Origin: Acidobacteriota bacterium
GTDB lineage: Bacteria > Acidobacteriota > Terriglobia > Terriglobales > Acidobacteriaceae
Length of the DNA stretch: 64,000 bases
NCBI GenBank assembly: GCA_003225555.1
Contig: QIAM01000086.1
Coordinates: 1-64,000, forward strand
Direction of reading: 5' to 3'
The notes under the pieces are model-generated. The model saw only the letters and a program-made list of their open reading frames with translations, was not told the origin of the DNA and made no database searches. Of the stretch, positions 1 through 20,338 are shown one piece after another. A program made the translations under genes and the position numbers. The first letter of the stretch is position 1. Each line of letters opens with the position of its first letter.

Positions 1-1
1 C

Positions 2-724: not shown

Positions 725-1025
725 TGGTCCTCCTGGAAGAAACTTGGTTCGGTAAGGGCGGTCACAGACATTCTAATCGCAGAGATCGCGAAGAAAAGGC
801 GCAGAGGGCGTTGTGAGGGTGGAATTGTGCGCATAGGTTGTGGAACCTGTGTTCCCTCGAGGAATGGTTGTGAAGGTTAATCTTGCAGGAAGCACGGCTG
901 ACGTTGTGAAAGGAATGTAGTGCGCAATCGTCTCGCGGAATTCGACCTGTGTTTGGAAAAATCCCCACCCTCTCGCACAGAACGCGAGAAGGGTGGGGCA
1001 CCTTGTTTGACTAACCCTCGTTTGA
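725..1025. other. Intergenic region with a palindromic repeat
   Basis: 301 bases without a credible gene. It holds the ribosome binding site of the SIMPL gene at its left end and one copy of the TCTCGC-N7-GCGAGA hairpin family (963-998) near its right end. The small open frames here lack ribosome binding sites and look random. Confidence 0.6.
963..998. repeat. Palindromic repeat family 1, copy A
   Basis: Hairpin with left arm CCCCACCC-TCTCGC, a 7-base loop (977-983) and right arm GCGAGA-AGGGTGGGG, followed by CACC and preceded by AAAAT. Shares core, loop length and flanks with copies at 8447, 9653 and 13064. It lies downstream of the 1026-1661 gene, so it could also act as a transcription terminator, but it has no U-tract. 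Confidence 0.75.
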
Positions 1026-1661: not shown

Positions 1662-1743
1662 GAGTATCCCCCTGGGATTGATATTGATATGGTGGTTGGA
1701 TGGGCGATAGAGAGAATTTGATGCCCCGAATCACGGATTTTCG

Positions 1744-3393: not shown

Positions 3394-3479
3394 TTTTCGC
3401 TCTGCAACGATTGTAAGAAATTAAGTGATGGGGCTGTAGTTACCGTAGTTACCGGATCCAGAACCGGCGTCCTTCGCGA

Positions 3480-4616: not shown

Positions 4617-4755
4617 TAGGGTTCCTGAAAAAGACTATCGGCGATTGTATCCCAAGATCGAGATGCCGAAAGTAATCAATCAGGTCCGGAAACGCTATCG
4701 AGACAGGGCAGCGGCGTGGTATTCAGAAGCGAGGAATCCCTACGTTTCCAACGCG

Positions 4756-7700
4756 ATGAGCACGTCCCTCTGGTCGATCTGGAATGCGGCACAGCTTGGG
4801 CTGGTCAAGCCGACGGCGGCGGAATTGTCTCTGCTGATCCTGCTGGGCACTTTTGTGCTCGCGTTGCGTACCTTCCGGGAGCGTTATCTCAAGATCTGGA
4901 TACTGGGTTGGACCGCGCTGGCGGCACCGCGGCTGGCGGAGCATGTTTTTGCGGCGCGGATTCCCGCACAATATTTGCCGTTATCGGTGCAGACGGCATT
5001 TGTAGTCGCCGTGGGACTGCTGGCTGGGGCGGCTCTGATCTATTCGCAGAGCCGGGATTTGTATGTTCCGCTGGCGGTAGTCACGCCGGTGTTAGCCGGA
5101 TTCGCTGCAGCGCGCGTGTTGCTGTGGTCTGATTCGGTTCCGCTGCGCATGGCTCTGGAGGTTGGCTACCGGATTGTGTTGTTGACAGCGGCGATTGCCG
5201 TGCTGCGTGCGCGACGCGGCAGGTGGGAGTTGGGGACGTGGACGCTGGCGCTGAGTTTGCCGTTCCTGCACCTGCCCTGGGAGCCTTTGACGAACCAGGT
5301 TCCGGCGGCGGTTTTTGTGGCAGCAGAGAGCGTGCTTGGATTGAGCATGCTGCTGGTGGTGTTCGACGAAGCCAAGGCCAGAAACCGGCGGCTGAGAGTG
5401 ACCCACGCTTTGACCGCGGGGATCGCGAGCGCGCAGCAATACGGGAATCTGGTTCAGACGGCGCTGCACGAGTTGCAGCGGCTGACCGGGATGAAGGCAG
5501 CATGGTTCCGCTTGCTGGAAGGCGGGCACATGGTCGCAACCCATGCCGTGGGTGTGTCCGCGGAGTTTCTGCGCGACGCCGGCTTTGCGGAAGTTACCGA
5601 AGACGTGTCGCGAATGCTGGAGAAGGCGCAGCCTCAGGTGGTGAAGATTGACGACGCGGCTCCGGAGAATCCGGTGTGCCTGGAGGCGGAGAAGATTCGG
5701 CAGGTCGTGATGCTGCCGGTGGTGGGAAAGAAATCGGCAATCGGCCTCCTTCTGCTGGGCAGTTCGCGTACGGTTTGCTGGACGCCAGAAGAGTTGCAAT
5801 TCCTGCAGAGCTGTGGGCAACAGCTGGCCATCGCGGTGGAGAACTTCCGACTGCTGGAACAGGTGCTCCGTTCTCAGCGGCAGTGGATGAATACATTTGA
5901 TTCGATCCACGACATTATTCTGGCGCATGACGAGGACTACCGCATCATCAAGGCCAACCAAGTTCTGCTGGAGCACGTGGGGCAGGCGACGGCTGACGTG
6001 CTGGGGAACACTTGCGAGTCCGTTCTCCCGCATACTTTCGGGGATTGGACGGGATGTCCGTACTGCGCGATGGGCGGAGACGAGGAGTTTACTGAGGGGG
6101 CCGATCCCTGCTTTGGCGGGTTTTCGGTAGTGTCGACCTCGTCCTACAGTGAACAGGGAAGTCCGCAAAAAGGAATCATTCACGTCGTACGCGATATCAC
6201 CGACCGTCGATCGGCGGAAGAGAAGTATCGACTGCTGTTTGAGCAGGTGCAGGAAGGCGTGTACGTGGCCACGCCGGAGGGAAAGATACTCGACTGCAAC
6301 GATGCGTTCGTGCACATGCTGGGGTACAACGGCCAGGACGAATTGCTGGCGATCAACCTGAACACGGAGATCTGTGTCGATCCCAACCAGCGGGCAAGCT
6401 TTCAGAAAGAGATCGAGACGCACAACTACGTGCGCAACTTCGAAGCGACGCTGCGGCGCAAGGATGGGACGATCCTGCTGGCGGCGGAAAGCAGTTTTGC
6501 GACACGCGATTCGATGGGCAAGATCGAGCGCTATCAAGGCTTCGTGCTCGATATGACGGAGAAGCGCCGTGCCGAAGACGAAATGCGGCGCCGGAACCGC
6601 GAATTGAACGCGCTGAATGCGATGGCGGTGGTGGCGACGCAGTCGTTCGATCTGGATGAGATCCTGAACCTTACGTTGCGCCAGGTGGTTTCACTCTTCG
6701 GCGCGGAGAGCGGATCGGTCTATCTTGCGGACACCGATGCCCCGACCTACCGGCGCCGGGCAGCCTGGGGACCGCGCAGCAGGGACAAAGGGAGGCCAGC
6801 CGAGATCTCGCTTTCGGATGGCTTTGGCGATCTGGTAATGCGGTCGCGCACCGAAGTGATCACGGCGGAGTACTTGCCGCACCTCCCGGCGCAGGTAGCC
6901 GACTTTATTCGCTCGGATGCGGATCGGGCGTGGATCTGGGTGCTGTTCTGGGGCAAGGATGCGCCCACGGGGATCATGGGGCTGTGCAGCCATCTGGGAT
7001 ATGAATACTCGACCAGTGAGGAGAATTTGCTGGTGGCGATCAGTCGGCAGTTGGCTACCACGATCGAGAAAGTCCGGCTCTACGAAGAAACCTGCAGGGC
7101 TTACGAAGACTTGCGCAAAACGCAAGAACAGTTACTGCAAAGCGAGAAGATGTCGGCGGTGGGACAGTTGATTGCAGGAGTGGCGCACGAACTGAACAAT
7201 CCGCTGACCGCGATTCTCGGTTACGCGCAATTGCTCGAGAGCGAGGGATTGAGCCAGCGAGCGCAGGACTATGTCGCCAAGCTGTTCAAGCAGGCGCAGC
7301 GTACGCACAGGGTGGTGCAGAACTTGTTGTCATTCGCGCGGCAGCGGAAGCCGCAGCGGGATGAAATCGATCTGCGGAAGGTGCTCGACGAGACGTTGGC
7401 GTTGCGCGACTACGATCTGAAGATCAATAACATCCGCGTGGAGAGGGAAGCGCCGAGCGAACTGACGGCGGTGGTTGCCGATTCCCACCAGATCGAGCAG
7501 GTCTTCCTGAACATCATCAACAACGCTGTGGATGCAATCCTGGAGACCGGGCGAGCCGGGAAGCTCAAGATCCGCGTCTACTGCGAGAACGGGCATGTAT
7601 GCACGCAGTTCGCGGATGATGGACCGGGGCTTAAGGATCCGAAGCGGATCTTTGATCCTTTCTACACGACCAAGAGTGTGGGTAAAGGGACTGGGCTGGG

Positions 7701-8265
7701 CCTCAGCATTTGCTACGGAATCGTGAAGGAGCATGGGGGCGACATCACGGCACGCAATGGCTCTGACGGTGGGGCGATCATTGAAGTGCGGCTGCCGGTT
7801 GCGGCGCAAACGGACACCAGACCGGAAGTTGTGGCTGTGCCTGCCCGCCGGCGCGAGGGCGCCATTGATGGCCGCGTGCTGCTGATGGAGGAAGAAGACG
7901 GAGTGCTTGAGTTCGAGCGCGATGTGCTGGCGGGCGCCGGCGCCAGCGTGGTTACCGCCAGAAAGAGTCAGGATGTGAAGACGCGGCTGCTTTCCGAGCA
8001 GTTTGATGCGGTAATCATGAACGGCAAGATCCCGGGCGACTGGAATGTGACAGAGGCCTATTCCTGGCTGAAAGAGCATTGTCCGGGAATGGAAAAGCAT
8101 CTGTTGTTTACCTTTTCGAATGGCATCGACCAGGGGGAAACGCGGAGCTTGCTGCAGGAAAAGAACATTCCCTGCCTGGTTAAACCTTTCGAAGTAGCAG
8201 ACCTGATCGCGCAGGCGCGGCGGCTGCTGCAAAAGAGCGCGGCCGCGACAGCATCTTCCAGCTAG
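4756..8265 (+). CDS. Hybrid sensor histidine kinase, GAF-PAS-PAS-GAF-HK-pseudoreceiver
   Basis: 1169 residues from ATG 4756. An upstream ATG at 4663 would leave only 46 bases to the divergent gene and adds a charged extension, so 4756 is preferred though no strong Shine-Dalgarno is visible. Order: seven or eight membrane helices (about 15-200), GAF (about 211-365), PAS with a Cys pair GCPYC (375-485), PAS (490-608), GAF (614-775), HisKA with His811 in GVAHELNNP, HATPase with an FADDGPG box and a GKGTGLGL box (905-1015), and a C-terminal receiver-like domain (1039-1158). In that last domain the phosphoacceptor position is Asn1089 (VIMNGK), while the acidic patch EEED, a Thr and the Lys of LVKPF remain, so it is probably a pseudoreceiver. 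Confidence 0.88.
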   Translation: MSTSLWSIWNAAQLGLVKPTAAELSLLILLGTFVLALRTFRERYLKIWILGWTALAAPRLAEHVFAARIPAQYLPLSVQTAFVVAVGLLAGAALIYSQSRDLYVPLAVVTPVLAGFAAARVLLWSDSVPLRMALEVGYRIVLLTAAIAVLRARRGRWELGTWTLALSLPFLHLPWEPLTNQVPAAVFVAAESVLGLSMLLVVFDEAKARNRRLRVTHALTAGIASAQQYGNLVQTALHELQRLTGMKAAWFRLLEGGHMVATHAVGVSAEFLRDAGFAEVTEDVSRMLEKAQPQVVKIDDAAPENPVCLEAEKIRQVVMLPVVGKKSAIGLLLLGSSRTVCWTPEELQFLQSCGQQLAIAVENFRLLEQVLRSQRQWMNTFDSIHDIILAHDEDYRIIKANQVLLEHVGQATADVLGNTCESVLPHTFGDWTGCPYCAMGGDEEFTEGADPCFGGFSVVSTSSYSEQGSPQKGIIHVVRDITDRRSAEEKYRLLFEQVQEGVYVATPEGKILDCNDAFVHMLGYNGQDELLAINLNTEICVDPNQRASFQKEIETHNYVRNFEATLRRKDGTILLAAESSFATRDSMGKIERYQGFVLDMTEKRRAEDEMRRRNRELNALNAMAVVATQSFDLDEILNLTLRQVVSLFGAESGSVYLADTDAPTYRRRAAWGPRSRDKGRPAEISLSDGFGDLVMRSRTEVITAEYLPHLPAQVADFIRSDADRAWIWVLFWGKDAPTGIMGLCSHLGYEYSTSEENLLVAISRQLATTIEKVRLYEETCRAYEDLRKTQEQLLQSEKMSAVGQLIAGVAHELNNPLTAILGYAQLLESEGLSQRAQDYVAKLFKQAQRTHRVVQNLLSFARQRKPQRDEIDLRKVLDETLALRDYDLKINNIRVEREAPSELTAVVADSHQIEQVFLNIINNAVDAILETGRAGKLKIRVYCENGHVCTQFADDGPGLKDPKRIFDPFYTTKSVGKGTGLGLSICYGIVKEHGGDITARNGSDGGAIIEVRLPVAAQTDTRPEVVAVPARRREGAIDGRVLLMEEEDGVLEFERDVLAGAGASVVTARKSQDVKTRLLSEQFDAVIMNGKIPGDWNVTEAYSWLKEHCPGMEKHLLFTFSNGIDQGETRSLLQEKNIPCLVKPFEVADLIAQARRLLQKSAAATASSS

Positions 8266-8538
8266 AGAATTGCCGATTCTGCTGGCTCAAGAGTACTTCT
8301 ATCTGATCGTTCAGAGGCCTTATCAAGAGTCACGCGCGGAACCTACCTGGGAAGCTGCGAAAACTCATTTTGCAGCTCGAGTTCAACTCAGTAACTGAAT
8401 TTTATTTCCTTACGTCGCGCTCGACACCGTGAGTCTCGCGGCGGCTCCCAGGTCTCGCAAAATCGGCGAGACCTGGGGCACCCCCACCCCAGCCGTCCTT
8501 TCGACGCGGAATCGGCGTTGGAACCTCTTATCAGTCTT
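8266..8538. other. Intergenic region with one repeat hairpin
   Basis: Between the convergent kinase and ArsR genes. It contains the perfect hairpin at 8447-8477; no coding frame or RNA gene could be supported in the remainder. Confidence 0.5.
8447..8477. repeat. Palindromic repeat family 1, copy D
   Basis: Perfect 12-bp stem CCCAGGTCTCGC / GCGAGACCTGGG around the 7-base loop 8459-8465, followed by GGCACC. It shares the TCTCGC-N7-GCGAGA core and GGGCACC tail with the copies at 963, 9653 and 13064 but has a different outer arm that is still fully paired. Lying between convergent genes, it may double as a terminator. Confidence 0.7.
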
Positions 8539-8901
8539 CTAGAGCTTGTTGCGAAGCGTCTTTATGAGGCGGCGGATTGCGCTCTCGTTGCGGCGATACC
8601 AGCGCCATTGGCCGCGCTTCACCGCCTCGACTAGTCCCGCCTTGGTGAGAATGGCCATGTGATGGGAGATTGTGGGCTGGGAGAGACGCATTCGCTCCTG
8701 GATGTCACCGGCGCAGAGGCAGGGATTTTTTCCGAGTGGGGCCTGCGAATTGTTTGCTTGCGAGTGCGGCGGGCGCGACACCCGTCGGACAGCCAGCGAG
8801 GACGCCGGCGATACGGCTTGCTTTAGCGTCAACAGAATGCGTCTACGAGTGAGATCTGAGATGGCGTATAGGGTGCGGTCGAGTGTGGTGTCGATGGGCA
8901 T
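8539..8901 (-). CDS. ArsR-family transcription regulator with an insert
   Basis: 120 residues. The opening (TLDRTLYAISDLTRRRILLTL) and the helix-turn-helix (about 61-105, LSQPTISHHMAILTKAGLV) with wing WRWYRRNE are typical of ArsR/SmtB repressors. Between them, where the family normally has two to four residues, there are about 33 extra residues (about 29-61) of Ser/Pro/Arg/Asn composition unlike the rest. The DNA of this stretch contains CGGACAGCC, the half-site of repeat family 2, so it may be a repeat-derived insert. A CxC (CLC) follows and could bind metal. A palindrome 34 bases upstream (8935-8950) may be its own operator. Ligand unknown. Confidence 0.8.
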   Translation of the reverse strand: MPIDTTLDRTLYAISDLTRRRILLTLKQAVSPASSLAVRRVSRPPHSQANNSQAPLGKNPCLCAGDIQERMRLSQPTISHHMAILTKAGLVEAVKRGQWRWYRRNESAIRRLIKTLRNKL

Positions 8902-8934
8902 AGACGAGTACGAATAGCTGGGAAATTGATGGAT

Positions 8935-8950
8935 GTCAATGTATGAATTT
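8935..8950. promoter_or_regulatory. Possible ArsR autoregulatory operator
   Basis: Inverted repeat ATTGA-N6-TCAAT, located 34 bases before the ArsR start codon on its coding strand. ArsR-type repressors usually bind A/T-rich palindromes of this size over their own promoter. The assignment rests only on position and symmetry. Confidence 0.35.
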
Positions 8951-9016
8951 CAACCGGCGGGCGAGCGAAGCTGATATGGGGACGCCCAAAAGGTGCTGAT
9001 GGGAGCGTCGCATAAA

Positions 9017-9610
9017 CTACTTTTTGAGGATCGGGTTGTAGCCGTCACTGATGAGGCGGGCACGGATGGCCTCGGCATCTTTGATGTCGGAGAAGGGGCC
9101 GACCTGAACGTGGAAGAGCTTGTCTGCGGTCGAAGTTGCGGCCACGAACGCGGGGTATTGTTTCTTCTTCAGCGCGTCTACGAGCGCTTCCGCATCTTCC
9201 TGCTTGCTTACAGCAGCCACTTGAACAAAATAGCCGGCAGAGGGCAGGGTGGTCATCGGGTCGGGCGCATTGGCGGCGGGAGTTTGAGCTTGGCCTGACG
9301 CAGGCGGTGCCTGGGTTGCACTGCTGTCTGGTTTTGACTCGGACGGGGGAGTGAGTTCGGGATTTGCGTCCTTCTGCTCGACAGCCTTGTAGAAAGTCAT
9401 GGGAGGCTGCGATGTGCCGGCGGCTTTCGTTTTTGTCGATGTGGGCTGCGGTGATGGGGCAGCGCTGGCGGTGGTGATCCCCGTCTCCGACTTGCGGCCC
9501 AACGAGTAGCCGACGGCAAAGAAGGCGGCGCAGACGGCAACCAAGCCGAAGAACAGGACCAATAGCTTGCCGGTGCCTAATGTGATTTCAGTGTCTGGTG
9601 AGGAAGCCAT
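9017..9610 (-). CDS. SPOR domain protein, inner-membrane anchored
   Basis: 197 residues: a short cytoplasmic start, one membrane helix (about residues 14-35, LLVLFFGLVAVCAAFFAVGY), a Pro/Thr/Ala/Gln-rich periplasmic spacer (about 45-120), and a C-terminal SPOR fold (about 123-195; GYFVQVAAVSKQEDA and FHVQVGPFSDIKDAE, the paired strands of the family). SPOR domains bind denuded septal peptidoglycan; FtsN/DedD-type proteins have the same layout. It follows the slipin gene on the same strand after 91 bases that contain a palindromic repeat, so it is not clearly in that operon. Confidence 0.88.
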   Translation of the reverse strand: MASSPDTEITLGTGKLLVLFFGLVAVCAAFFAVGYSLGRKSETGITTASAAPSPQPTSTKTKAAGTSQPPMTFYKAVEQKDANPELTPPSESKPDSSATQAPPASGQAQTPAANAPDPMTTLPSAGYFVQVAAVSKQEDAEALVDALKKKQYPAFVAATSTADKLFHVQVGPFSDIKDAEAIRARLISDGYNPILKK

Positions 9611-9652
9611 AAGTTACTCCACAATTTTCTTCGATCGAGACTTCAGAAAATT

Positions 9653-9686
9653 CCCGCCCTCTCGCAAAAGACGCGAGAAGGACGGG
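9653..9686. repeat. Palindromic repeat family 1, copy B
   Basis: CCCGCCC-TCTCGC, 7-base loop (9666-9672), GCGAGA-AGGACGGG, followed by CCACC and preceded by AAAATT. Same core and loop length as copies A, C and D with a changed outer arm. It fills most of the gap between the slipin and SPOR genes. Confidence 0.75.
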
Positions 9687-9701
9687 CCACCCTGGTGTTT
9701 C

Positions 9702-10496
9702 TCATGCGGTCTTCGCCGGCGCGCCTCCATCAGACTTCCCCAGAAGCTTTTGGATTCCTGAGAAGAAATCTACTGGGACGGGGAAGACTACCGTGGTGTT
9801 CTTTTCTACGCCGATCTCGGTCAGGGTCTGCAGATACCGGAGCTGGACGCTGACGGGTTCGGTGGCGAGCAGATGGGCGGCATCCACGAGACGCTGTGCG
9901 GCCGAGAACTCGCCTTCGGCGTGAATTATCTTGGAACGCTTCTCGCGTTCGGCTTCGGCCTGCTTGGCCATGGCGCGCAACATTGATTCCGGCATGTCGA
10001 CCTGCTTTACTTCTACGTTGACCACCTTCACGCCCCATGGGGCGGTGTGCTGGTCCAGTATGCTCTGCAGGCGCAGATTGATCTTTTCGCGATGGGCAAG
10101 AAGTTCGTCGAGTTCCTGTTCGCCGAGAACTGAGCGCAATGTGGTTTGGGCAAATTGCGAGGTCTGGTACACGTAGTTGGAAACTTCGACAACTGCTTTG
10201 CTGGGATCAATTACGCGGAGGAAGATGACGGCGTTGACTTTCAGCGTGACATTGTCGCGGGTGATGATGTCCTGAGGAGGCACTTCGAGAGCTTCCTGGC
10301 GCAGGGAGACGCGGACCATTCGATCGATGGGAGCGAAGACCAGGATGATGCCCGGGCCCTTGGCCGACGAAAGCAGGCGCCCGAGACGGAAGATGACGCC
10401 ACGTTCGTACTCTGCCAGTATCTTGATGGAACTCAGAAGATAGATGACAACGATGATGACGACGACTGTGGTGAAGCCGAAGCCGAACACTTCCAT
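9702..10496 (-). CDS. Slipin / SPFH-band 7 membrane protein
   Basis: 264 residues from ATG 10496, chosen because GGAGG lies five bases before it; the in-frame GTG twelve bases earlier would start inside that site. One N-terminal membrane helix ([21 protein letters not shown]) leads into an SPFH domain ([18 protein letters not shown], then [26 protein letters not shown]) and a Glu/Ala/Lys-rich helical segment ([22 protein letters not shown]). This is the bacterial stomatin/slipin type (YbbK/QmcA-like, closest to the slipins paired with NfeD). The NfeD-type protease gene lies upstream on the same strand. Such pairs are thought to control membrane-protein turnover in lipid microdomains. Confidence 0.92.
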
Positions 10497-10508
10497 GATT
10501 GCCTCCAC

Positions 10509-10715
10509 GCAAGGAGCGGCAGGCGCTCCTCAAGCGGATTGTATAGCAGTGGGACGGGAGCGGCGCGCATTTCGAGGGTGAGCTAGTTGCTTGGCTTGAT
10601 ACGCAGTGCCGATGAGATTTCGGTAAACACAGGCAGCTGGGCTTCGCCCGGCCGGACAGCCGAGGGCGGCTGTCCCCACATACCTATTTCCACATGGGAG
10701 CTGATGGTGTCCCGG
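10509..10715. other. Gap between nfeD-like and slipin genes
   Basis: About 207 bases between two genes that are usually adjacent. It carries a short GGGC-TTC-GCCC hairpin (10640-10650) directly followed by a family 2 palindrome (10654-10675). No gene is visible; the repeat pair accounts for the otherwise unusual spacing. Confidence 0.5.
10654..10680. repeat. Palindromic repeat family 2, intergenic copy
   Basis: GGACAGCCG, a 4-base loop, CGGCTGTCC, then CCACAT. The right arm and tail CGGCTGTCCCCACAT recur inside the gene at 14160-15785 (15293-15306), and the GACAGCCG/CGGCTGTC stem recurs at 60844-60862. Confidence 0.7.
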
Positions 10716-12038
10716 CTAGATCGCGGCTACTGTGGGCCTGGGTGACTGCGCGACGGACAGAGGATCTACTTGCAGTGTGAGTCCGTCGACCCGGCGCACG
10801 ACCACGAGTTGGCCCACGGGAATGTCGGAGGACGAGACTGCGTCCCAAAGCTCTCCGTGAACGAAGACTTTGCCCTGCGGTGAAAGCGCGGTTTGCGCTA
10901 CGCCCGTTTCGCCGACCAGGCCTTGGGCTCCGGTCACGACTTTGTTGCGCCGGGCCTTGAGGGCGATGCTCATCAGGAATGCTGTGATGAAACCCAGCGG
11001 GATGCTGACTCCTAATGCAGTCCAGAGATGAACGCGCATCTCTGGGATGGGAGCATCGACCAGCAGTAGGGCGCCGAGCGTGATCAGGGCGATGCCGCCG
11101 ATGGTTAACACGCCATGAGTCGCGAACTTTGCCTCGGCGGCGAACAATGCGAAGGCGCCGAGGATCAATACCAGAGCCGCAAAGCGGGTTGGGAGAAGAT
11201 TCAGGGCGAAGATTGCCAGGAGGATGAATACGACTCCGACGGTTCCGGGGATAACCGCGCCGGGATGGTTGAACTCGATGTAAAGAGACAGGGCGCCGAT
11301 CGCCAGCAGCAGGAAGGCGATGTTCGGGTTCATGAGATAGGCTAGAATGTGTTCCTTCAAGGTCATGTCGAAGGGGACGATGGGCTGGCCGGCTAGCTTG
11401 AGTGTTGTGGTTTCGCTATTAAACCGTTTGAAGGTCTTTCCCTCGGCTTGGCGAAAAAGATCTTCTTCGCTCGTGGCAACGTAGTCGATGAGGTGCTGCG
11501 AAAGCGCCTCCTGTTCGGTAAAGGACTTCGAAGCACGGACGGCACTTTCAGCCACCTCCACGTTGCGTCCACGCTTGGCGGCGACCGATCGCATCAGAGC
11601 TGCGGCGTCGTTCTCCATTTTCGCTTTCATCACGTCGTCTATCTTGCCGCCACCCAGCACAACGGGGTGAGCCGCGCCGGCGTTGGTGCCGGGAGCCATG
11701 GCCGCGATGTCGGCCGATTCAAGAATAAAGAATCCCGCGGAGCCTGCGCGGCTGCCGCCCGGGGTGACATAGAGGATCACCGGGACTTTCGAAGCAGTGA
11801 TCTTCTCAATGATGTCGCGGGTGGAGTCGACAAGTCCGCCCGGAGTATTGAGTTCAATCAGTACCGCGTGAGCATTGCGGCGATGGGCTTCGTCGATGGC
11901 GCGGGCAATGTATTCGGCGGTGATGGGCTGGATCGTGTCGTTGACGACGATCTTGAGAACTTCGGCGGAGGCCAAGGAGCACAGCAGACATGCGACTCCC
12001 AGGCCAGCGAGGACTTGCGAGATCAGACCATTCTTCAT
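10716..12038 (-). CDS. NfeD-family membrane serine protease (ClpP-class)
   Basis: 440 residues. A signal peptide/anchor (about 1-25) precedes a ClpP/SppA-like protease domain (about 27-210): NTPGGLVDSTRDII, the GSAGFFIL nucleophile-Ser segment and a Lys-containing helix DDVMKAKMENDA that supplies the dyad. Four to five membrane helices follow (about 230-370) and then an NfeD OB-fold beta domain (about 375-435; GLVGETGVAQTALSPQGKVFVHGELW). Members of this long NfeD class (e.g. archaeal 1510-N) cleave the hydrophobic C-terminus of their partner slipin, which is encoded downstream. The DinB-like gene ends only 19 bases before its start, so the three may be co-transcribed. Confidence 0.92.
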   Translation of the reverse strand: MKNGLISQVLAGLGVACLLCSLASAEVLKIVVNDTIQPITAEYIARAIDEAHRRNAHAVLIELNTPGGLVDSTRDIIEKITASKVPVILYVTPGGSRAGSAGFFILESADIAAMAPGTNAGAAHPVVLGGGKIDDVMKAKMENDAAALMRSVAAKRGRNVEVAESAVRASKSFTEQEALSQHLIDYVATSEEDLFRQAEGKTFKRFNSETTTLKLAGQPIVPFDMTLKEHILAYLMNPNIAFLLLAIGALSLYIEFNHPGAVIPGTVGVVFILLAIFALNLLPTRFAALVLILGAFALFAAEAKFATHGVLTIGGIALITLGALLLVDAPIPEMRVHLWTALGVSIPLGFITAFLMSIALKARRNKVVTGAQGLVGETGVAQTALSPQGKVFVHGELWDAVSSSDIPVGQLVVVRRVDGLTLQVDPLSVAQSPRPTVAAI

Positions 12039-12057
12039 GCGAACCGAGTCGCGCTGC

Positions 12058-12672
12058 CTACTGCTTCGGGAAGTTCGGATCGGCCTTCACTTCCGCGATC
12101 TGTTTAGTGTGTCGTTCGCTGTGCCCGGCGATGAAGAGGATGAACTCGTAGCCATCCAAGTTCTTGCCCATCGGGCCCATCATGGCATGCTCGCGCAGAT
12201 CATTCGTGTTCTTCAAAAAGTCCTCAGTGGTGGCGCGCGCCTCAAGGAAATGCTTGAGAGAACCGTCGGGCGAACCGTAACGATTGGTCGGCTTCAACGG
12301 ATCTGGAGCCTGCGCCTTGTGGGAACGATCTGGAATCTGGGCCACCACCATCGAGTCGATCGCCGCCACGTCTTCGCCGGCGGGCCGGGGCGGAGACTTC
12401 ATAACCTTTTCGACGATCATCCCGCGGATAAAGTCCTCAGCCGCGGCGATATGTTCCGTGCACTCGGCTACCGACCAGCGGTCGGGGGCAGACTTGAAAT
12501 TCCACTGCGTTGCAGACAATCCCTTGGTCGCATCGATGACTCCCTGGCGGGTGGATTCCAGATACTGCATCGCTTTGTCACGGTCGGCTTGAGTAAGCGA
12601 TTGGGCGTACGTGGCAAGCGAACTTGAGATGACCAGTACCAGCAGTGAAATCAGAGCGTGTCTCTTCGGCAT
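12058..12672 (-). CDS. Secreted DinB-like protein
   Basis: 204 residues with a signal peptide (about 1-23, ..SSLATYAQS). The mature part is a DinB/YfiT-type four-helix bundle: AECTEHIAAAEDFI gives the first metal His and GHSERHTKQI the last two, matching the three-His divalent metal site of this superfamily, whose members include thiol transferases and many uncharacterised enzymes. Export is a variation that is common in Acidobacteria. It lies 19 bases upstream of the nfeD-like gene on the same strand. Confidence 0.85.
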   Translation of the reverse strand: MPKRHALISLLVLVISSSLATYAQSLTQADRDKAMQYLESTRQGVIDATKGLSATQWNFKSAPDRWSVAECTEHIAAAEDFIRGMIVEKVMKSPPRPAGEDVAAIDSMVVAQIPDRSHKAQAPDPLKPTNRYGSPDGSLKHFLEARATTEDFLKNTNDLREHAMMGPMGKNLDGYEFILFIAGHSERHTKQIAEVKADPNFPKQ

Positions 12673-12731
12673 TCAGATCTCCTGAGTGTTGGCAATGCAG
12701 TTTAGCAGTTTTTCAAAATCCAATCTTACCC

Positions 12732-14132
12732 TTACTTGCGCGTGGCAGCGGGAATTTCTTGGGGTTTCGATTCCGCCGTTCCGGCGTGCTCGGCGTGGAG
12801 GTCGGTCCAACCGGGCAGGTAGGTACTGCCGGTGATTAACCGGGCTCCGCGCTCGTAGGTAACATAGGACCACGCCCACTGGATCAGCACCAGCAGGCGA
12901 TTGCGAAAGCCGACCAGATACATGATGTGGATGAAGAGCCATGCCAACCAGGCTACGAATCCGGAGATGTGGATCTTGCCGAATTCGGCTATGGCTGCGG
13001 CGCGGCCGATGGTGGCCAGGCTGCCTTTGTCCCAGTAGTGGAAAGTGGGACGTGAGTCAAAATCCCCACCCTCTCGCAGAGGACGCGAGAAGCGTGGAAC
13101 ACCCGGATCCTTCATGCCGTGCGCTTCCAGTTCATTGCGAATCAGGTTGGCTACGAAGCGTCCTTGCTGCATGGCTACGGGGGCTACGCCGGGAAGAATC
13201 TTGCCGTTTTCGTCTTTCAATGCGGCTAGATCGCCGATCACGAAAACTTCGGCATGACCGGGGAGGCTGAGATCGGGCTGCACGAGCACGCGGCCGGCGC
13301 GATCGGTGGGAGCGCCTAGTTTCTTGCCCAGCGGGGAAGCGGCGACGCCGGCGGCCCACAGGACTATCGCCGCGTCCAGGTGTGTGTCGCCTACGTGAAC
13401 CGCTCCGGGTTCGATCTGCGTCACCACTGCGGAGGTGCGGACCTCGACGCCGAGATGCTGCAATTGTTCCTGGGCGCTGCGGGAGAGATCTTCGGAATAC
13501 GTGGGCAGGACGCGGGAACCGCCCTCTAGCAGGAGAATGTGGGACCGCTTGGGATCGATGGAGCGAAACTCGTGAGCGAGGGCATGACGGCTGATTTCGG
13601 CAAGCGCACCGGCGAGTTCGACGCCGGTGGGTCCAGCTCCAACGACCATGAAGGTCAAGGGCTTGTTCGTCTCTCCTGCGGCGGCCTGGCGCTCTGCCAA
13701 CTCGAAAGCCAGCAGCACGCGGCGGCGAATCTCGAGGGCGTCTTCAATGGTCTTGAGGCCGGGGGCAAGCGGTTCCCAGTCGTCGTGGCCAAAGTAGGCG
13801 TGACGGGCTCCGGCGGCGACGATCAGATAGTCATAGGGAAGTGCTTGATCGGAAGTTTCTACGAGATGGCGGTCGAGGTCGAATCCGTTGACCTCATCCA
13901 TCAGAACTTCGACATTCTTGTAGCGGCGGAGGATGGAACGGATGGGGGCCGCGATTTCTCCTGGAGAAAGGCCTGCCGTTGCGACCTGGTAGAGCAGAGG
14001 TTGAAATGTGTGGTGATTCTTGCGATCGATGACCGTGATCTGGAGCGGCGCGCGAGCCAAGCTGCGGGCGGCATTCAGGCCGCCGAAGCCGGCGCCGATA
14101 ATTACGACGCGCGTTGTTGTCTTGCGGTTCAT
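12732..14132 (-). CDS. ndh: Type II NADH dehydrogenase, with repeat-derived insert
   Basis: 466 residues from ATG 14132 (a longer frame would overlap the divergent gene). Two Rossmann folds are plain: FAD-binding GAGFGGLNAARSL near residue 10 and NAD(P)H-binding VVGAGPTGVELAGAL near 165; the second FAD contact is FVIGDLAAL. A C-terminal amphipathic/hydrophobic segment (ISGFVAWLAWLFIHIMYLVGF) gives monotopic membrane binding. It oxidises NADH and reduces quinone without proton pumping. Odd: at about residues 340-358 a GVPRFSRPLREGGDF stretch encoded by a family 1 palindrome (13064-13099) is inserted just before RPTFHYWDKGSLATIGR, where relatives go straight from the helix to the strand. Reading frame is preserved. 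Confidence 0.92.
   Translation of the reverse strand: MNRKTTTRVVIIGAGFGGLNAARSLARAPLQITVIDRKNHHTFQPLLYQVATAGLSPGEIAAPIRSILRRYKNVEVLMDEVNGFDLDRHLVETSDQALPYDYLIVAAGARHAYFGHDDWEPLAPGLKTIEDALEIRRRVLLAFELAERQAAAGETNKPLTFMVVGAGPTGVELAGALAEISRHALAHEFRSIDPKRSHILLLEGGSRVLPTYSEDLSRSAQEQLQHLGVEVRTSAVVTQIEPGAVHVGDTHLDAAIVLWAAGVAASPLGKKLGAPTDRAGRVLVQPDLSLPGHAEVFVIGDLAALKDENGKILPGVAPVAMQQGRFVANLIRNELEAHGMKDPGVPRFSRPLREGGDFDSRPTFHYWDKGSLATIGRAAAIAEFGKIHISGFVAWLAWLFIHIMYLVGFRNRLLVLIQWAWSYVTYERGARLITGSTYLPGWTDLHAEHAGTAESKPQEIPAATRK
13064..13099. repeat. Palindromic repeat family 1, copy C, inside ndh
   Basis: CCCCACCC-TCTCGC, 7-base loop (13078-13084), GCGAGA-AGCGTGGAA, then CACCC, preceded by AAAAT. The outer right arm is less well paired than in intergenic copies. 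It lies in the coding region of the NADH dehydrogenase and adds about a dozen codons without a stop or frameshift. Confidence 0.75.
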
Positions 14133-14159
14133 CGCCACACTTAGATAAGATTCAGCGCG

Positions 14160-15785
14160 ATGGTTGACGATTCCAGAAGTTCTTCGGAGGAACCACAGCA
14201 TCGCGGTTGGATTCGGTGGCTGATGCCTTCGGTGGGGGATGTGATTTTCATCGCGTTGCTCGGACTTTTGTGCTTTACGCCACTGTCGGTGCGATTGCTG
14301 GGGGATGCGGGAATCGGGTGGCACATCCGGACGGGACAGGAGATTCTCGCGACCCATGCGATTCCGGGTGTGGATCTATTTTCCTCGACGATGCTGGACA
14401 AGCCGTGGTTAGCGTGGGAGTGGCTGTACGACATTCTGGTCGGTGGGCTGGATCGAGCGGCTGGGCTGAACGCAGTTGTGCTCTTCACAGCGCTGGTGAT
14501 TGCGGCCGTCTTCGCGTGGACCTTTCGGCTGATAGTGCGGCGTAGGACCAATCTGCAGCTGGCGGTGGTGCTTGTGATGCTGGCAGCGTCGGCGTCGATG
14601 ATTCATTTCCTGGCGCGGCCGCATGTGTTGAGCTGGTTGTTTACGGTGGTGTGGTTTTGGATCCTGGATTCGACGGAAAAAGAATGCCTTGCGGGAAGGA
14701 CTGGAAAGCATTCGAGAATCCTTTGGTCGTTGCCGCTGCCGATGCTGATTTGGGTGAATGTTCACGGGGGATGGCTGATTGGGTTTGCGCTGCTGGGGAT
14801 TTATTGGATCAGCGCCCTATGGATTTGGTTTGCGACAGGACACAACAGAGTGGAGGGGATTCTACTCCGGTTACGGTTGGCCCGGCGCGCCAGGGAGTTG
14901 GCGATTGTGGGCGTTATCGCGGCGTTGACGACACTGGCGAATCCCTACGGGTGGAAATTACATAGCCATATTTATCACTACCTTTCCAATCGGTTCTTGA
15001 TGGATCACATCGATGAATTTCAGTCGCCGAACTTTCATGGTGTGGCGCAGAGGTGTTTCGCGGGGTTGATCCTGATTGCATTTGTGGCCTTGGGAGCGCG
15101 GGCGCGTCGAGAGCGCTTGAGCGAAGGCTTGGTTGTGTTGTTTGCGGTTTACTCGGGGTTGGTTGCGTCGAGGAATATTCCCGTTTCGTCGCTACTGCTT
15201 GTGCTTGTTGCCGGGCCATTACTGTCGGAGGCGTTTGCAAAGATTCGATGGCATCGTTTCCTGCGGTGGGGCCGCGGAGCCGAGCTTCGCTCGGCTGTCC
15301 CCACATTCCTCGCACGGATGGGGGCCCTCGAATTAGGCTTGCGGGGCCATGTTTGGGTGGTTTTGGCGGTGGTTCTGTCGAGCTGGATTGTGCTTCATGG
15401 GGGCGTCGCGGGATCGAGTAGGCTCATGGATGCGCACTTCGACGCCACGCGATTCCCCGTGAAAGCGGTGGACTTCGTTGCGCAACAAGGCTTGCCGGAG
15501 CCAGTGCTTGGTCCTGACTATTGGGGCGGGTATTTGATTTACCGGCTCTATCCAACGGTGCAGGTGGTTGCGGACGACCGGCATGATTTGTATGGCGAAG
15601 AATTCTTCAAGTTTTACTTGAAGATGGTGCATGTTGAGCCCGGATGGTACACCCTCATTCGTGAACAAGGTGTTCGCCGCGTCCTGATGCCGAAGGGGTC
15701 GCCCGTGGCGAACATCCTGGCCGAGAGCGTGGGATGGCAGATGGTCTATGAGGACAACGTGGCGGTTTTGTTTGAAAAGAGATAG
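14160..15785 (+). CDS. Polytopic membrane protein, GT-C-like, paralogue of 27675-29159
   Basis: 541 residues with about ten to twelve membrane helices. The first extracytoplasmic loop (GIGWHIRTGQEILATHAIP.. then WLAWEWLYDIL) and the C-terminal soluble part (YWGGYLIYRLYPTVQVVADDRHDLYGEEFF) are shared with the 494-residue protein at 27675-29159. The layout suggests a GT-C-type glycosyltransferase or mannosyltransferase-like protein, but no catalytic residue can be assigned. The start at 14160 is only 27 bases from the divergent ndh start; ATG 14223 is an alternative. At about residues 369-382 a family 2 palindrome (15266-15304, 39 bases) is translated as GRGAELRSAVPT within a loop. Confidence 0.75.
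   Translation: MVDDSRSSSEEPQHRGWIRWLMPSVGDVIFIALLGLLCFTPLSVRLLGDAGIGWHIRTGQEILATHAIPGVDLFSSTMLDKPWLAWEWLYDILVGGLDRAAGLNAVVLFTALVIAAVFAWTFRLIVRRRTNLQLAVVLVMLAASASMIHFLARPHVLSWLFTVVWFWILDSTEKECLAGRTGKHSRILWSLPLPMLIWVNVHGGWLIGFALLGIYWISALWIWFATGHNRVEGILLRLRLARRARELAIVGVIAALTTLANPYGWKLHSHIYHYLSNRFLMDHIDEFQSPNFHGVAQRCFAGLILIAFVALGARARRERLSEGLVVLFAVYSGLVASRNIPVSSLLLVLVAGPLLSEAFAKIRWHRFLRWGRGAELRSAVPTFLARMGALELGLRGHVWVVLAVVLSSWIVLHGGVAGSSRLMDAHFDATRFPVKAVDFVAQQGLPEPVLGPDYWGGYLIYRLYPTVQVVADDRHDLYGEEFFKFYLKMVHVEPGWYTLIREQGVRRVLMPKGSPVANILAESVGWQMVYEDNVAVLFEKR
15266..15304. repeat. Palindromic repeat family 2, copy inside a CDS
   Basis: Outer stem GTGGGG / CCCCAC and inner perfect 8-bp stem AGCCGAGC / GCTCGGCT around TTC. 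The 39-base element equals thirteen codons and leaves the frame of the 541-residue membrane protein intact. Tail GGCTGTCCCCACAT matches the intergenic copy at 10654. Confidence 0.7.
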
Positions 15786-15972
15786 TCTGCGACTAACCCA
15801 AGACTGTTTTCCTAGTGCTGCAAAACCGTTCACATTGACAGCGGCTGAGCTCCCAAGATATGTTCAGCAGCGCGTTTCACGCGCGCGTGGTGTCCATCCA
15901 CGAATGCCCTGCCATTGTTTGGAACAGAACTGCGCTGGCAAGTCACTCTCAGATCGTAAGGACGAATTTCCC

Positions 15973-17499
15973 ATGAAGCGAATTTTCTGTGGTTCTCAGC
16001 GTGTAGGAACTCTGTTCGCCGTTGTGACTGCGTTAGTGGCACTGGGTTGTGGAGCGCCAGTGAGTCCAGCACAGACGACGCCGGACGTTCCGGCGGCGAC
16101 TTTAACCCAGATCAGTTCGGACCCGTTCACGGTTGGTCCGGGACAGCATGCGACGGAAGTGGAACCGCATGTCCTAGCCAATGGATCGACGCTGGTGGCT
16201 GCCTTTCAGACCGGGCGCATCGCGCCGGGTGGTTCGACCGACATTGGGTGGGCCACTTCGACGGACGGCGGCACGAGCTGGTCGCACGGGTTTTTGCCGG
16301 GGCTGACCAAGGGTGAAGGCACTGGTCCTTACGATGCGGCGAGCGATCCTGCGGTCGGGTTTGATTCCATGCATGGCGTGTGGATGATTGCTTCGCTGCC
16401 CATTTCGAATACGTCTCGAACACCGGCGGTCGTGGTGAGCCGGTCGACGGACGGCGGATTTACCTGGCAGAATCCGGTGAGCGTTGATACCAACGCCATC
16501 AGCTCGGACAAGAATTGGATTGTCTGCGATAACACTTCGAGCAGCCCCTTCTTTGGGAATTGCTACATGGAGTGGGACGATCCTTCTGCCGGCGACCAGA
16601 TTCTGATGAGTACGTCGAGCGATGGTGGTCTGACCTGGGGGGCAGCCACAACCACCTCGAATCGCGCGACCGGAATTGGCGGGCAGCCGTTGGTACAGCC
16701 GAATGGGACGGTGATCGTTCCCATTGAAACCTCAGGAATGTCTGCTTTCTCGTCGACGAACGGCGGGGTGAGCTGGTCGGCGCCGGTCACGATTGCGGGT
16801 ATTCAGAGCCACGTCGATGCAGGAGGAATCCGCAGCAGTCCTCTGCCTTCAGCGGCGATTGACGGCGCTGGGAAGATTTACGTGGTGTGGGAAGACTGCC
16901 GCTTCCGGACCGGGTGCTCGACCAATGATCTGGTTTACAGCACATCTTCCGACGGGACTACCTGGTCGAAGGTTACCCGGGTTCCGATCGATCCGACCAC
17001 CAGCACGGTGGATCATTTCATCCCGGGGATTGGCATTGATCCGGCGACTTCGGGGACGACGGCGCACATCGCAATTCACTATTACTTCTATCCCAAGAGC
17101 AGCTGCACCAAGTCAACGTGCCAGCTTTTTGTTGGGTACATCTCGTCCCTCACGGGGGGTGCAACGTGGCACACAAAGTTGGTGCTCGTGGGACCGATGG
17201 GCCTGCCGTGGCTCCCGAACTCCCAGAATGGGCTGATGGTCGGGGACTATATTTCCACGGCTTTCACCAATGGGATACCACATGGCGTGTTCGCGGTCGC
17301 TGCGGCGAAGAGTGGAACCACCTTCAACGAGTCGATGTTTACGGCACAAGGTTTGACGGTTGCGGCGGTGGCGCAAGGAGCAGAGTTGTCGTCGGCCGGT
17401 GACAAACCTCTGCATCACCTGTCGGAGAAGGCTAGGAGAGAGCGTCCGGAGAAGGGCGTGATTCCGCCGCAGCGGAAGGCGCAGAGAAGCGCAAATTAG
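15973..17499 (+). CDS. Secreted sialidase-like (BNR repeat) protein
   Basis: 508 residues from ATG 15973, chosen because a signal peptide starts there (MKRIFCGS..ALVALGC); the open frame extends 225 bases upstream without signal-like sequence. The body is a six-bladed beta-propeller of the exo-alpha-sialidase/neuraminidase superfamily, with repeated Asp-box-like motifs: STDGGTSWS, STDGGFTWQ, SSDGGLTWG, STNGGVSWS, SSDGTTWS. I do not see the arginine triad needed to call a true sialidase. The Cys after the hydrophobic core could be a lipid-attachment site but the lipobox is weak. The C-terminus is a charged tail (about 480-508). Confidence 0.8.
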   Translation: MKRIFCGSQRVGTLFAVVTALVALGCGAPVSPAQTTPDVPAATLTQISSDPFTVGPGQHATEVEPHVLANGSTLVAAFQTGRIAPGGSTDIGWATSTDGGTSWSHGFLPGLTKGEGTGPYDAASDPAVGFDSMHGVWMIASLPISNTSRTPAVVVSRSTDGGFTWQNPVSVDTNAISSDKNWIVCDNTSSSPFFGNCYMEWDDPSAGDQILMSTSSDGGLTWGAATTTSNRATGIGGQPLVQPNGTVIVPIETSGMSAFSSTNGGVSWSAPVTIAGIQSHVDAGGIRSSPLPSAAIDGAGKIYVVWEDCRFRTGCSTNDLVYSTSSDGTTWSKVTRVPIDPTTSTVDHFIPGIGIDPATSGTTAHIAIHYYFYPKSSCTKSTCQLFVGYISSLTGGATWHTKLVLVGPMGLPWLPNSQNGLMVGDYISTAFTNGIPHGVFAVAAAKSGTTFNESMFTAQGLTVAAVAQGAELSSAGDKPLHHLSEKARRERPEKGVIPPQRKAQRSAN

Positions 17500-17516
17500 A
17501 TCTCGGAATTTTCGTG

Positions 17517-17547
17517 GGCCGCCGATCGTGTCGGCGGCCTTTCTTGT
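17517..17547. terminator. Bidirectional terminator hairpin
   Basis: Perfect 9-bp stem GGCCGCCGA / TCGGCGGCC with a 5-base loop, followed by TTTCTTGTTTT, between the convergent sialidase-like gene and the TonB-like gene. Placed just after the first and overlapping the end region of the second. Confidence 0.8.
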
Positions 17548-17549
17548 TT

Positions 17550-19943
17550 TCAGAATTTATCGTCGGTGTTGACGTTAAAGCCCAGGATCGCGTTGACCAA
17601 GACTGGTTGATCACCGCGCATGGCGGGGCGAAACTTCCATTTCGACAAGGAAGAAAGAATCTTCGTGGTTACGTCGGATGGACCGGACTGGAGCAGGCTG
17701 ACGATCTTGAGATTCCCGGACGCATCGATGACGCAGCGGACCACGATTTGCGAGCGTGGCAGTCCCACAGGCAAATCGGAACGCAAAGGCTCCAGGCCAC
17801 CAAGGCTTCCGAAATAGGACTGTGTCGCGGAGTCCGGATCAGCGTACTGCATGGAGAGGGGACCAAATGCCGAATCCGGGAAATATACTGAATAGTTGTC
17901 GCCGGGTAACTCGCCGTAGCGGTTGAAAGCGCCTCCGGATCGGGCCGTAGCCACGATTGTGATGGCGGGACCCAGTTGCTGCTTCACAGGCGAACGCGCA
18001 GGAACTGTGGGACTGCTGCCGCCTCCGTCGGAACCGAAGCTGGGCAGGTTTACGATTGCGGTGCTTCCTCCACTGATTGCGACACCGGGTACCGGGGGAG
18101 CACCTCTGGCGACTCTGCCTGCACCGCCCGGGCCGAGCGAGGGGGAGATGCCACTCCGAGTATTGGGGTCGATGCCGTGACCGGTCCCCACCTTTCCTGC
18201 GCCGCTGCCTTCGCCTGTCATGCCGCTGCCGGGACCGTTGCCGTGTCCGATGCTGGAGCCACCGCCAGCGCCTCCCAGGCCGGGTTTGTCGCTACCTGTG
18301 GGCGACAGTGCGAGCGAACCGGTGCCTGCGTTGCCGGGAATACCAACTTTAGATCCGGGCTGGTTGCTGATAACAACGCCGGAGCCTCCACCGCCTCCGC
18401 CGGTGGGTGGAGCGAGGGCGGACCCCACGTCGAGCGGGCTTCCCAGACCTGCGCCTCTCGTTCCTCGTCCTGAGCCGGTAAGCGACGATCCACCTCCGAT
18501 CGAGGGAGGTGGGGGGACAACGTTTCCGGCGAGCAGAGTGCCACCGGGACCTCCAGTCGGGATCGAAGCATTCCCTACGCCGCGGCCTGCGAGGGAGGGT
18601 GGAGGCGGGACTACGTTGGTGCTCAGGGCTGCTATTGATCCGCCAGGGCGGTCGCTAGCGCCAGGAGCCGACACCGACGGTGGCGGTGGGACAACGTTTG
18701 TGGCGAGCGCGGCGCCCGTGCCGTTCGGAGCGCTCCGCGCATTGGCAGAGGTGCTGCCTCCGCTAACGCTAGGTGGCGGTGGGACGACGTCGGTGGTGCC
18801 GAAGATCTTGCCCACCAGGCTGCTCATCAAGCCGCCGCTGCCAGACGGCGTGGGCGGTGGAGGAACCACGGACTTGGACGGGTCAGCAACGCTACCCGAA
18901 GCTAGCCGGTGCAAATCGCGGGACATGTCGGTGGATGGCGGTGGTGCAATCATGGAAGGAGCCGGCATCGTCAGCTTCGCGGTTCGAGCGCTCTCGCGTT
19001 CTGGAGAAGAGACCGGAGGCGGAACGACGGCGACGTTTGTCATCTGCACCGGCGATCGAGAAATCTGTGGGCTGGCGACAGTGGGCGCGGGTGGAATAAC
19101 TGTCCCGGCTAACGCGGGTGTGTTGCGAGCGCGTTCGGAAGTGACACTTGGAGCAGGCGCGATGACACTCGAATCCAATTTTGGCGCAACCAGAGTGTGC
19201 TCTCGGGAAACGTTCGGAGCAGGTGCGATGACCTCAGCTCTCAGTGAAGGAGCCGTCAGGACATTATCGCGTGTGACGCTGGGAGCGGGAGGAATGACGG
19301 AGGGTGCGGACAGGCCTCCTCGCGTGTAATCGCGCGTCAGTTTCGGCGCAGGCGCGATCACATCCGCGGGCACGGTTAAGACCGGTCGAGATGAGCGCAG
19401 ACCTTCCAGCGGCGGCGGACCCGGGTTTGGCTTGATGGCTAGCAGATTCGCTACTGCATCGCGGAAAGCTGGCAGCTTCAGATTAGGAGCATCGACGACC
19501 TTTTCAACCAGCGAGCCTCCGCGAGCAATCCGAATCGTTTGCGTATGGTGACGTGCTTGATTACCGCCCGCATTGCCAGCAATGCCGGCATGCGCGCCTC
19601 CTAAGTCTTCGGTGCGAGGGAGTTCATCGCCCGAGTAATAGATGACATCGTGGCTGGACAGTTTCGGTGGAGCATAGGGCCGGAGCTTCGCGATCTTCAC
19701 CGGGAGAACGATCACGGCAAGAACCACGAAGGCTTCGATCGCCCAGGTGGCCAACATCGGGCGATAGGGATGAAGACCGTATGGGACTTCGCCCGCCAGA
19801 CGCGCCGTCGAGCGGGCCAGCGCCGGGCGGATGGAGGTGCGGAATTCCTCCCAGGGCGAAGACCACTCGACTAAAAGTCTGGGCGCTTCGTGCTGGCGGA
19901 AAGCTCGCACTTCGATGGCCTGTTCGAGGAGTGTCTCAGTCAT
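17550..19943 (-). CDS. Proline-rich TonB-like protein at the end of the tad operon
   Basis: 797 residues. A cytoplasmic N-terminus (1-63) and one membrane helix (about 65-85, WAIEAFVVLAVIVLPVKIA) precede a very long periplasmic spacer. The spacer holds five tandem 22-residue units of type VIAPAPxVxxE..xxAPxL (about 190-305), several NVVPPPPS blocks (about 350-495) and a Gly/Ser-rich stretch (about 495-650). The C-terminus (about 710-790; LPRSQIVVRCVIDASGNLKIV, then LSSLSKWKFRPAMRGDQPV) is a TonB-type energy-transducer fold. It overlaps the DUF192 gene by four bases (ATGA type) and is the last gene of the run that starts with flp. The spacer is long enough to cross the periplasm. Role at the pilus is unknown. 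Confidence 0.8.
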   Translation of the reverse strand: MTETLLEQAIEVRAFRQHEAPRLLVEWSSPWEEFRTSIRPALARSTARLAGEVPYGLHPYRPMLATWAIEAFVVLAVIVLPVKIAKLRPYAPPKLSSHDVIYYSGDELPRTEDLGGAHAGIAGNAGGNQARHHTQTIRIARGGSLVEKVVDAPNLKLPAFRDAVANLLAIKPNPGPPPLEGLRSSRPVLTVPADVIAPAPKLTRDYTRGGLSAPSVIPPAPSVTRDNVLTAPSLRAEVIAPAPNVSREHTLVAPKLDSSVIAPAPSVTSERARNTPALAGTVIPPAPTVASPQISRSPVQMTNVAVVPPPVSSPERESARTAKLTMPAPSMIAPPPSTDMSRDLHRLASGSVADPSKSVVPPPPTPSGSGGLMSSLVGKIFGTTDVVPPPPSVSGGSTSANARSAPNGTGAALATNVVPPPPSVSAPGASDRPGGSIAALSTNVVPPPPSLAGRGVGNASIPTGGPGGTLLAGNVVPPPPSIGGGSSLTGSGRGTRGAGLGSPLDVGSALAPPTGGGGGGSGVVISNQPGSKVGIPGNAGTGSLALSPTGSDKPGLGGAGGGSSIGHGNGPGSGMTGEGSGAGKVGTGHGIDPNTRSGISPSLGPGGAGRVARGAPPVPGVAISGGSTAIVNLPSFGSDGGGSSPTVPARSPVKQQLGPAITIVATARSGGAFNRYGELPGDNYSVYFPDSAFGPLSMQYADPDSATQSYFGSLGGLEPLRSDLPVGLPRSQIVVRCVIDASGNLKIVSLLQSGPSDVTTKILSSLSKWKFRPAMRGDQPVLVNAILGFNVNTDDKF

Positions 19944-20338
19944 GCGGTCGCTATTCGCCCATCCTTCCCCACATTGAACTCAATTTTATCGCCAACTACT
20001 GTCCCGGTTTGGGCGATCGTCTGACACGGGAGTTCCAATACTGACGCAGCCTGGAAGCGCACCGGAGCGAAGCGCCAGGGCCGCAAATTCTGCTCGATGT
20101 GGACGACCATCTGCTCGCGATCCAGATAGACCACGTCAATGGGAAAGCTCATGGCCAGAGTATGGACGCCCCGGCAGGGAACAATCCAGAGCCCTCGGCC
20201 GTTACGGAAGTCACTCGCGGAGGCTCCCAGCAGGCCCCGGAGGCGCGTCCAGTGCGTGTCGGCAAGCGCCAGCGCGGTCGCCAGGTAGGCCTGCCGCGTT
20301 TGGTTGAAAGCCTGTGACTGAGGAGAAAAAACTGCCAT
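19940..20338 (-). CDS. DUF192 family protein
   Basis: 132 residues. The DUF192 hallmarks are present: RLRGLLGASASDFRNGRGLWIVPCRGVHTLAMSF-type segment (about 34-66; WIxPCxxVHTxxM), PIDVVYLD, and a C-terminal VLELP..T region. Family proteins are small beta-rich proteins of unknown biochemical role, frequently exported; no signal peptide is seen here. It starts 34 bases after tadC and its stop overlaps the TonB-like start, so it belongs to the pilus operon by position. Confidence 0.88.
   Translation of the reverse strand: MAVFSPQSQAFNQTRQAYLATALALADTHWTRLRGLLGASASDFRNGRGLWIVPCRGVHTLAMSFPIDVVYLDREQMVVHIEQNLRPWRFAPVRFQAASVLELPCQTIAQTGTVVGDKIEFNVGKDGRIATA

Follow-up and report, generated by a model that had tools for sequence, protein, structure and literature searches.

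Palindromic repeats inserted in frame are known mainly from Rickettsia, where, to our knowledge, it is unclear what moves them. The Rickettsia palindromic elements (RPEs) are described, in the available text of the sources, as palindromic repeats of about 150 bp that lie in frame in many unrelated genes (PMC10969869), and the small REP-like RPE-4 and RPE-6 are counted among them (PMC3733652). The available sections of the latter source also place REPs inside ORFs, among them DNA repair genes and, in two species of Xanthomonas, nearly the same position of recB, and describe acidobacterial tyrosine transposases with terminal repeats. The diversity of REP-associated transposases, with a high-copy structure in Solibacter, is covered in the accessible part of a further study (PMC6006769), and excerpts of another give REP counts for three acidobacterial genomes (PMC12306157). 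Our literature searches, conducted largely outside subscription papers, returned no report of the repeat family described below or of repeats in acidobacterial ndh.

The window, i.e., the whole stretch of 64,000 nucleotides analysed here, contains on its minus strand an ndh gene for a type II NADH dehydrogenase (NDH-2) of 466 amino acids (12732..14132, stop included; ATG at 14132). The gene product matches chain 9mqy_A (NADH:ubiquinone reductase) with 371 bits and comprises the Pfam domains PF07992 and PF22366. Within the gene, a palindromic element with a 46-nt core (AAAAT-stem-loop-stem-CACCC) occupies 13059..13104 on the plus strand, where it runs AAAAT, stem CCCCACCCTCTCGC, loop AGAGGAC, stem GCGAGA-A-GCGTGGAA and CACCC, with hairpin arms at 13064-13077 and 13085-13099. 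The first-pass annotation had claimed a palindromic repeat at 13064-13099, read in frame inside an NADH dehydrogenase gene, and both points are borne out, the enzyme being identified as NDH-2 by structure match and Pfam. A conserved flank at 13054..13058 (plus strand) reads GACTC on the minus strand (consensus GACTT, with frequencies of G 0.87, A 0.84, C 0.66, T 0.60 and T 0.60 in 67 copies outside ndh) and is either the element's own terminus or the site that it targets. Together with the first three flank bases, the element encodes NDH-2 codons 344-359, GVPRFSRPLREGGDFD (13056..13103, minus strand). The earlier estimate was about residues 340-358, with an insert of about 20 residues; the repeat itself gives about 16, and the remaining extra residues form a variable linker. 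The outer stem of the ndh copy is damaged, and its minus strand folds with -20.8 kcal/mol (z -2.5); the intact copy at position 958 folds with -29.1 kcal/mol (z -5.1). The draft state of the genome (114 contigs, 86% complete) lends some weight to a chance resemblance or an assembly artefact, but a covariance model built on seven family copies, with the ndh copy left out, recognises the ndh copy with 50.6 bits (E 1.8e-11), and a relative that was assembled separately (G011/L039) has the same ndh insert. We regard such an error as having a negligible probability, and the in-frame palindromic repeat inside ndh is confirmed as real.

The insert follows the last helix of the NAD domain and precedes the FHYWDKG strand, and alignment to 9mqy, the nearest solved relative, shows gaps of 6 and 12 residues at this place. 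In the orthologue alignment that the first-pass annotation had proposed as a check, the spacer from the QG helix to FHY measures 39 residues in the NDH-2 of the window vs. 18 in every one of the 35 parsed rows, which come from 65 more distant loci (L054-L118; 30 unparsed for spacer length). The repeat-coded residues occur in none of these 35 rows. In an AlphaFold model based on 33 sequences (mean pLDDT 75), residues 341-360 have block means of 48 and 53 and lie between a helix (317-339) and a strand (371-375). This is consistent with a flexible repeat-coded segment and supports, without proving it, the loop expected earlier, which may be exposed at the surface.

The element belongs to a family with at least 51 hits (E ≤ 0.05) to the covariance model in the 4.42-Mb, 114-contig assembly, a lower bound because 150 of 1406 candidates were scored; a plain DNA search of the assembly gave eight matches. 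Two further copies lie on the plus strand of the window at 958..1003 (74.2 bits) and 9647..9692 (71.3 bits), neither with an ORF of 110 aa across it, and a related shorter-stem copy of the CCCAGGTCTCGC type at 8446..8483 (plus strand) is weak (21.2 bits, E 0.028). The copies at 958 and 9647 both have a counterpart in the nearest relative, G011, that of 958 being diverged. Where alignable, their sites in the regions of 19 other relatives show no model match, several of these regions being unaligned at the site and exact borders not definable. Window positions 1-20000 gave no match to the Rfam 15 covariance models at E ≤ 1, and no relative of the family was found in the viral contigs scanned. 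Other family copies combine very different yet self-complementary stems with a similar loop and the GGGGCACCC end. Outside ndh, pairing is kept by compensatory change, with 30 two-sided paired cells vs. 1 broken, most of the 67 comparison copies coming from loci that were selected because they scored high with the model.

With its flank, the 46-nt core extends to about 51 nt. All six frames of the consensus core are open, and five of six are open when the GACTT flank is included, as in 58 of 67 copies; among shuffled sequences, 26% have five open frames and 6% have six. In 36 of the 51 copies in this assembly, the model length leaves a remainder of 1 on division by three, a length class that is also seen in copies without a long ORF across them. 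As frames are open and so many lengths fall into one class modulo three, an in-frame outcome should be easy wherever a loop is permissive. Since the core reads through without a stop in every frame and contributes about 16-17 codons, insertions would survive where a longer loop is tolerated.

Comparison with described systems places the family closest to REPs, with which it shares a short imperfect hairpin, a copy number in the dozens per genome, positions beside RAYT transposase genes in relatives (at some loci on both sides, inverted) and occurrence inside ORFs, as far as the available text reports the latter for REPs (PMC3733652). Unlike REPs, whose foot is GTAG (PMC3733652) or GT[AG]G (PMC6006769) in the accessible portions of these papers, the family has GGTG next to the stem, and its stems vary widely between types. 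Because of this foot, we call the family REP-like and RAYT-linked rather than typical REPs. The resemblance to RPEs suggested by the first-pass annotation holds, by description, for in-frame residence in unrelated genes (PMC10969869, PMC3733652, available text) but not for size, which is 46-51 nt vs. about 150 bp (PMC10969869), and the closest mechanism is that of REP/RAYT systems. CGTC-tagged REPs carry CGTC at one end and lack a transposase link, whereas this family ends in GGTG and ATTTTGAC and has such a link. The TIRYT/TIRtron elements of Koribacter versatilis are likewise acidobacterial and have repeats on either side of a tyrosine transposase, in one case belonging to a repeat family (PMC3733652, available text). 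Compared by motif only, however, the GGGGWSAS of some of their TIRs misfits the GGGGCACC or GGGGATTT of the present family.

Family copies are found close to RAYT-type genes. Of 139 matches to PF01797 (Y1 transposases) in relatives, 53 loci were searched with the family model: among 20 loci of the lower-scoring, longer-frame group, taken with about 1 kb of flanks, 12 contain family hits (E ≤ 0.05) and 8 do not, and among 33 other PF01797 loci the counts are 7 with (E ≤ 0.1) and 26 without. A rough background is given by five non-ndh hits at E ≤ 0.01 in 358 kb of syntenic DNA. At six loci (L240, L233, L229, L230, L237 and L212), copies lie on both sides of the transposase gene in opposite orientation. 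Neighbouring transposases pass the NCBIfam RAYT model NF047646 in three of three cases (96, 111 and 104 bits; cut-off 80). The assembly that contains the window (86% complete) has four partial Y1 hits and, beside three family copies on contig C40, only a truncated RAYT gene, which scores 53 bits and misses the cut-off of 80; like the loci without a family hit, this counts against the link. The associations in relatives suggest that the family is REP-like and non-autonomous, a palindromic element of some 46-51 nt that is most likely mobilised by RAYT (TnpA-REP, HUH-Y1). In a REP-type cycle, the transposase would handle the hairpin as a single strand and join the element elsewhere. The in-frame behaviour of a palindrome would here be tied to a candidate transposase in soil acidobacteria. 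As separate observations, a Y1 transposase gene in the same assembly (C44:72858-73273; L122 1348-1763) is itself interrupted by a hairpin of the CCCATGTCTCGC type, a second copy of which lies upstream, and the RAYT-like frame of L233 (G001:C143) has an apparent in-frame family copy (IPTSRAKGAREMGHPAE).

The family is present in all 36 same-genus genomes searched, with at least 3 to at least 104 hits each (lower bounds, about 102 candidates being scored per genome), and in 2 of 24 more distant genomes, with 11 hits and 1 hit. Its spread in ndh is patchy: the element lies in the NDH-2 loop of 13 of 39 in-group rows and is lacking from the other 26. Twelve carriers have it in the same orientation and frame, and the thirteenth, G008, has a diverged element in reverse, read as GLHPVSQTATKVGRP and scoring 22 bits; none of 500 codon shuffles gave as good a match. 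The reading offered by the first-pass annotation was partly supported but incomplete, as the insertion does not stand alone. When about 358 kb of ndh-neighbouring DNA was taken from 20 relatives, 11 hits reached at least 45 bits, and 10 of them lie in the ndh linker. The recurrence of the element in the ndh loop across the genus is the new point of this study, and with dozens of comparable species, it becomes possible to test how the element inserts, how it chooses targets and how loops grow. The ndh linker of G002 (L173) measures 85 residues and contains two model-scored family copies and further repeat-like stretches.

Our first reading was a single insertion in the ancestor of the genus, followed by many losses, with the inserts held near the consensus by DNA-level constraint or conversion. 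That 12 carriers share orientation and frame, and 8 of these the distance to FHY as well, fits this reading, as does a lack of obvious donors in two genomes: the ndh copy of G018 is the best-scoring of only eight family copies, and G014 has few copies of the 46-nt type found in ndh, so that no local donor pool of this type is seen in either. Remnants were sought in ndh non-carriers by codon shuffles (50 rows, two orientations each), and nothing firm emerged besides G008; the suggestive p values, all uncorrected, belong to G012 (0.004), G023 (0.018, reverse), G005 (0.028, reverse) and G022 (0.04), the last a weak remnant-like stretch that would favour an ancestral insertion.

Against a single event stands the gene tree of ndh, which was computed with the linker columns left out and on which the 12 carriers need nine state changes, at least seven of them forced by well-supported branches, with G008 coded as 'no insert'. 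The tree covers 33 of the 37 genomes of the genus (including the one studied here) and 17 rows from named contigs. G006, G024, G031 and G032 are absent from it owing to a distant, partial or broken match or to the lack of a locus, and contig rows that were too short or had an already included identical protein were skipped. Its 11 outgroup rows were chosen after spacer lengths had been seen, and the unpicked figure is the 35 of 35 given above. Sister rows differ in the element in G034/G023, G007/L051, G018/G003 and L041/G001. A point against repeated insertion is that random shuffling of the labels gave as few changes in 46 of 500 trials. The reversed copy in G008 likewise argues against one ancestral insertion.

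The inserts themselves carry no tree signal. Their distances do not follow those of the gene (Mantel r 0.09, p 0.33; control of protein vs. third position, r 0.68), and when inheritance of a 48-nt insert was simulated on the gene tree, the mean r was 0.75 and none of 2000 runs fell as low as the observed 0.066. A star model of independent draws from one consensus fits the insert distances (P 0.39), all these comparisons resting on 48 sites, a small number. By codon position 1/2/3, the inserts are identical at 0.79/0.81/0.78, vs. 0.85/0.91/0.49 in the rest of the gene, and none of 410 windows of 16 codons in the gene reaches the third-position identity of the insert. Slow evolution of the element may inflate this contrast, because one copy outside ndh that G000 and G011 have in common is well preserved. 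Relative to the nearest non-ndh copy, changes are spread evenly over codon positions (19/18/21), and the peptide therefore shows no sign of purifying selection. Broken pairs make up 9 of 140 pair cells in 10 ndh copies (those of the 12 that passed a threshold of 35 of 45 matches plus the downstream motif) vs. 11 of 938 in the 67 other copies, a set that leans to high scorers; ndh thus shows no sign of hairpin upkeep, which also speaks against inserts held near the consensus since a common ancestor. Tree, codon pattern, Mantel test, simulation and the reversal in G008 together weaken the ancestral insertion, which we now consider rather improbable. Repeated insertion into the ndh loop is more likely, and we infer that most same-orientation insertions are independent. 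Conversion between copies is an open alternative source of the likeness among inserts.

Recurrence in one loop of one enzyme, and the fact that most hairpin pairs still form in the ndh copies, could also point to adoption of the peptide or hairpin for a function, such as regulation or a protein contact of NDH-2, kept by selection. Such a role is very unlikely given that 26 of 39 in-group rows do without the element, that changes fall evenly on the three codon positions and that the segment forms a low-confidence loop in the AlphaFold model. Tolerance of the ndh insert, rather than benefit from it, would better account for these patterns. We consider it probable that a RAYT-mobilised, REP-like element lands repeatedly, and in frame, in permissive loops with little selection on the peptide. 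In ndh it would have landed, with the reading frame preserved, in the linker that separates the last helix of the NAD domain from the FHYWDKG strand, the same loop would have been entered repeatedly across the genus, and the copies would then decay in place.

The family is read in frame in other genes as well, which bears out the earlier suggestion that the repeat can enter coding DNA without destroying genes. The assembly has further in-frame copies in MurC, a DppF-like ATPase, SMC, a family 2 glycosyltransferase, MutL, an FtsX/MacB-type permease, a CHAT protein, AlaS (two copies) and DnaG; two more hosts are presumably an ASPIC/UnbV-like protein and a radical SAM protein. A TrpB-like protein has a family copy near its start, where a later start codon is possible. 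The names AlaS, MutL, SMC, TrpB and LolC-like were assigned from Pfam domains. Insertion in frame is judged against genus orthologues for ndh and MurC, by gaps in PDB alignments for the DppF-like ATPase, and by ORF and Pfam only for the others; the PDB alignments of both MurC and the DppF-like ATPase are gapped near the element. The two AlaS copies lie within one gene, at C32:7821-7861 and C32:8409-8448.

In MurC, element-like inserts occur at one loop in 8 of 18 genus rows, and their stems differ as widely as CCCTGTCGC, CCCTGTCCCTGC, CTTCTCGCGC and CTCGAGCCGC, so that this loop is hard to explain by one event. Seven of the eight inserts fold better than mononucleotide shuffles, with z of -3.2 or beyond, and the eighth has z -0.5. 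The inserts directly follow the LIK codons in some rows and lie several codons on in others, and an ATCAA word at the insertion side is kept in 15 of 18 rows, carriers included. The ndh non-carriers have no consistent ATCAA word at their insertion side. It is conceivable, if doubtful, that the element is adapted to genes through its stop-free core, its length class modulo three and a TTGAY / RTCAA-like target, and that different subfamilies refill the loops of MurC, NDH-2 and other proteins in different species, keeping to one orientation and frame. If this were true, fixed codons of essential genes would serve as landing pads, and the element would generate loops in proteins time and again, with a bias for certain sites. 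As one loop appears to have been refilled, the genus provides a natural experiment on how housekeeping enzymes acquire loops and stay functional.

The gene that we take to be DnaG has orthologues among the relatives. Its loop varies in length and contains the peptide of the family in some rows, and no clean empty site could be defined for it in the genus. Across L367-L387, this highly length-variable loop also contains other recurring peptides, e.g., TTNDQRPTT, a sign that it may receive more than one family of repeats.
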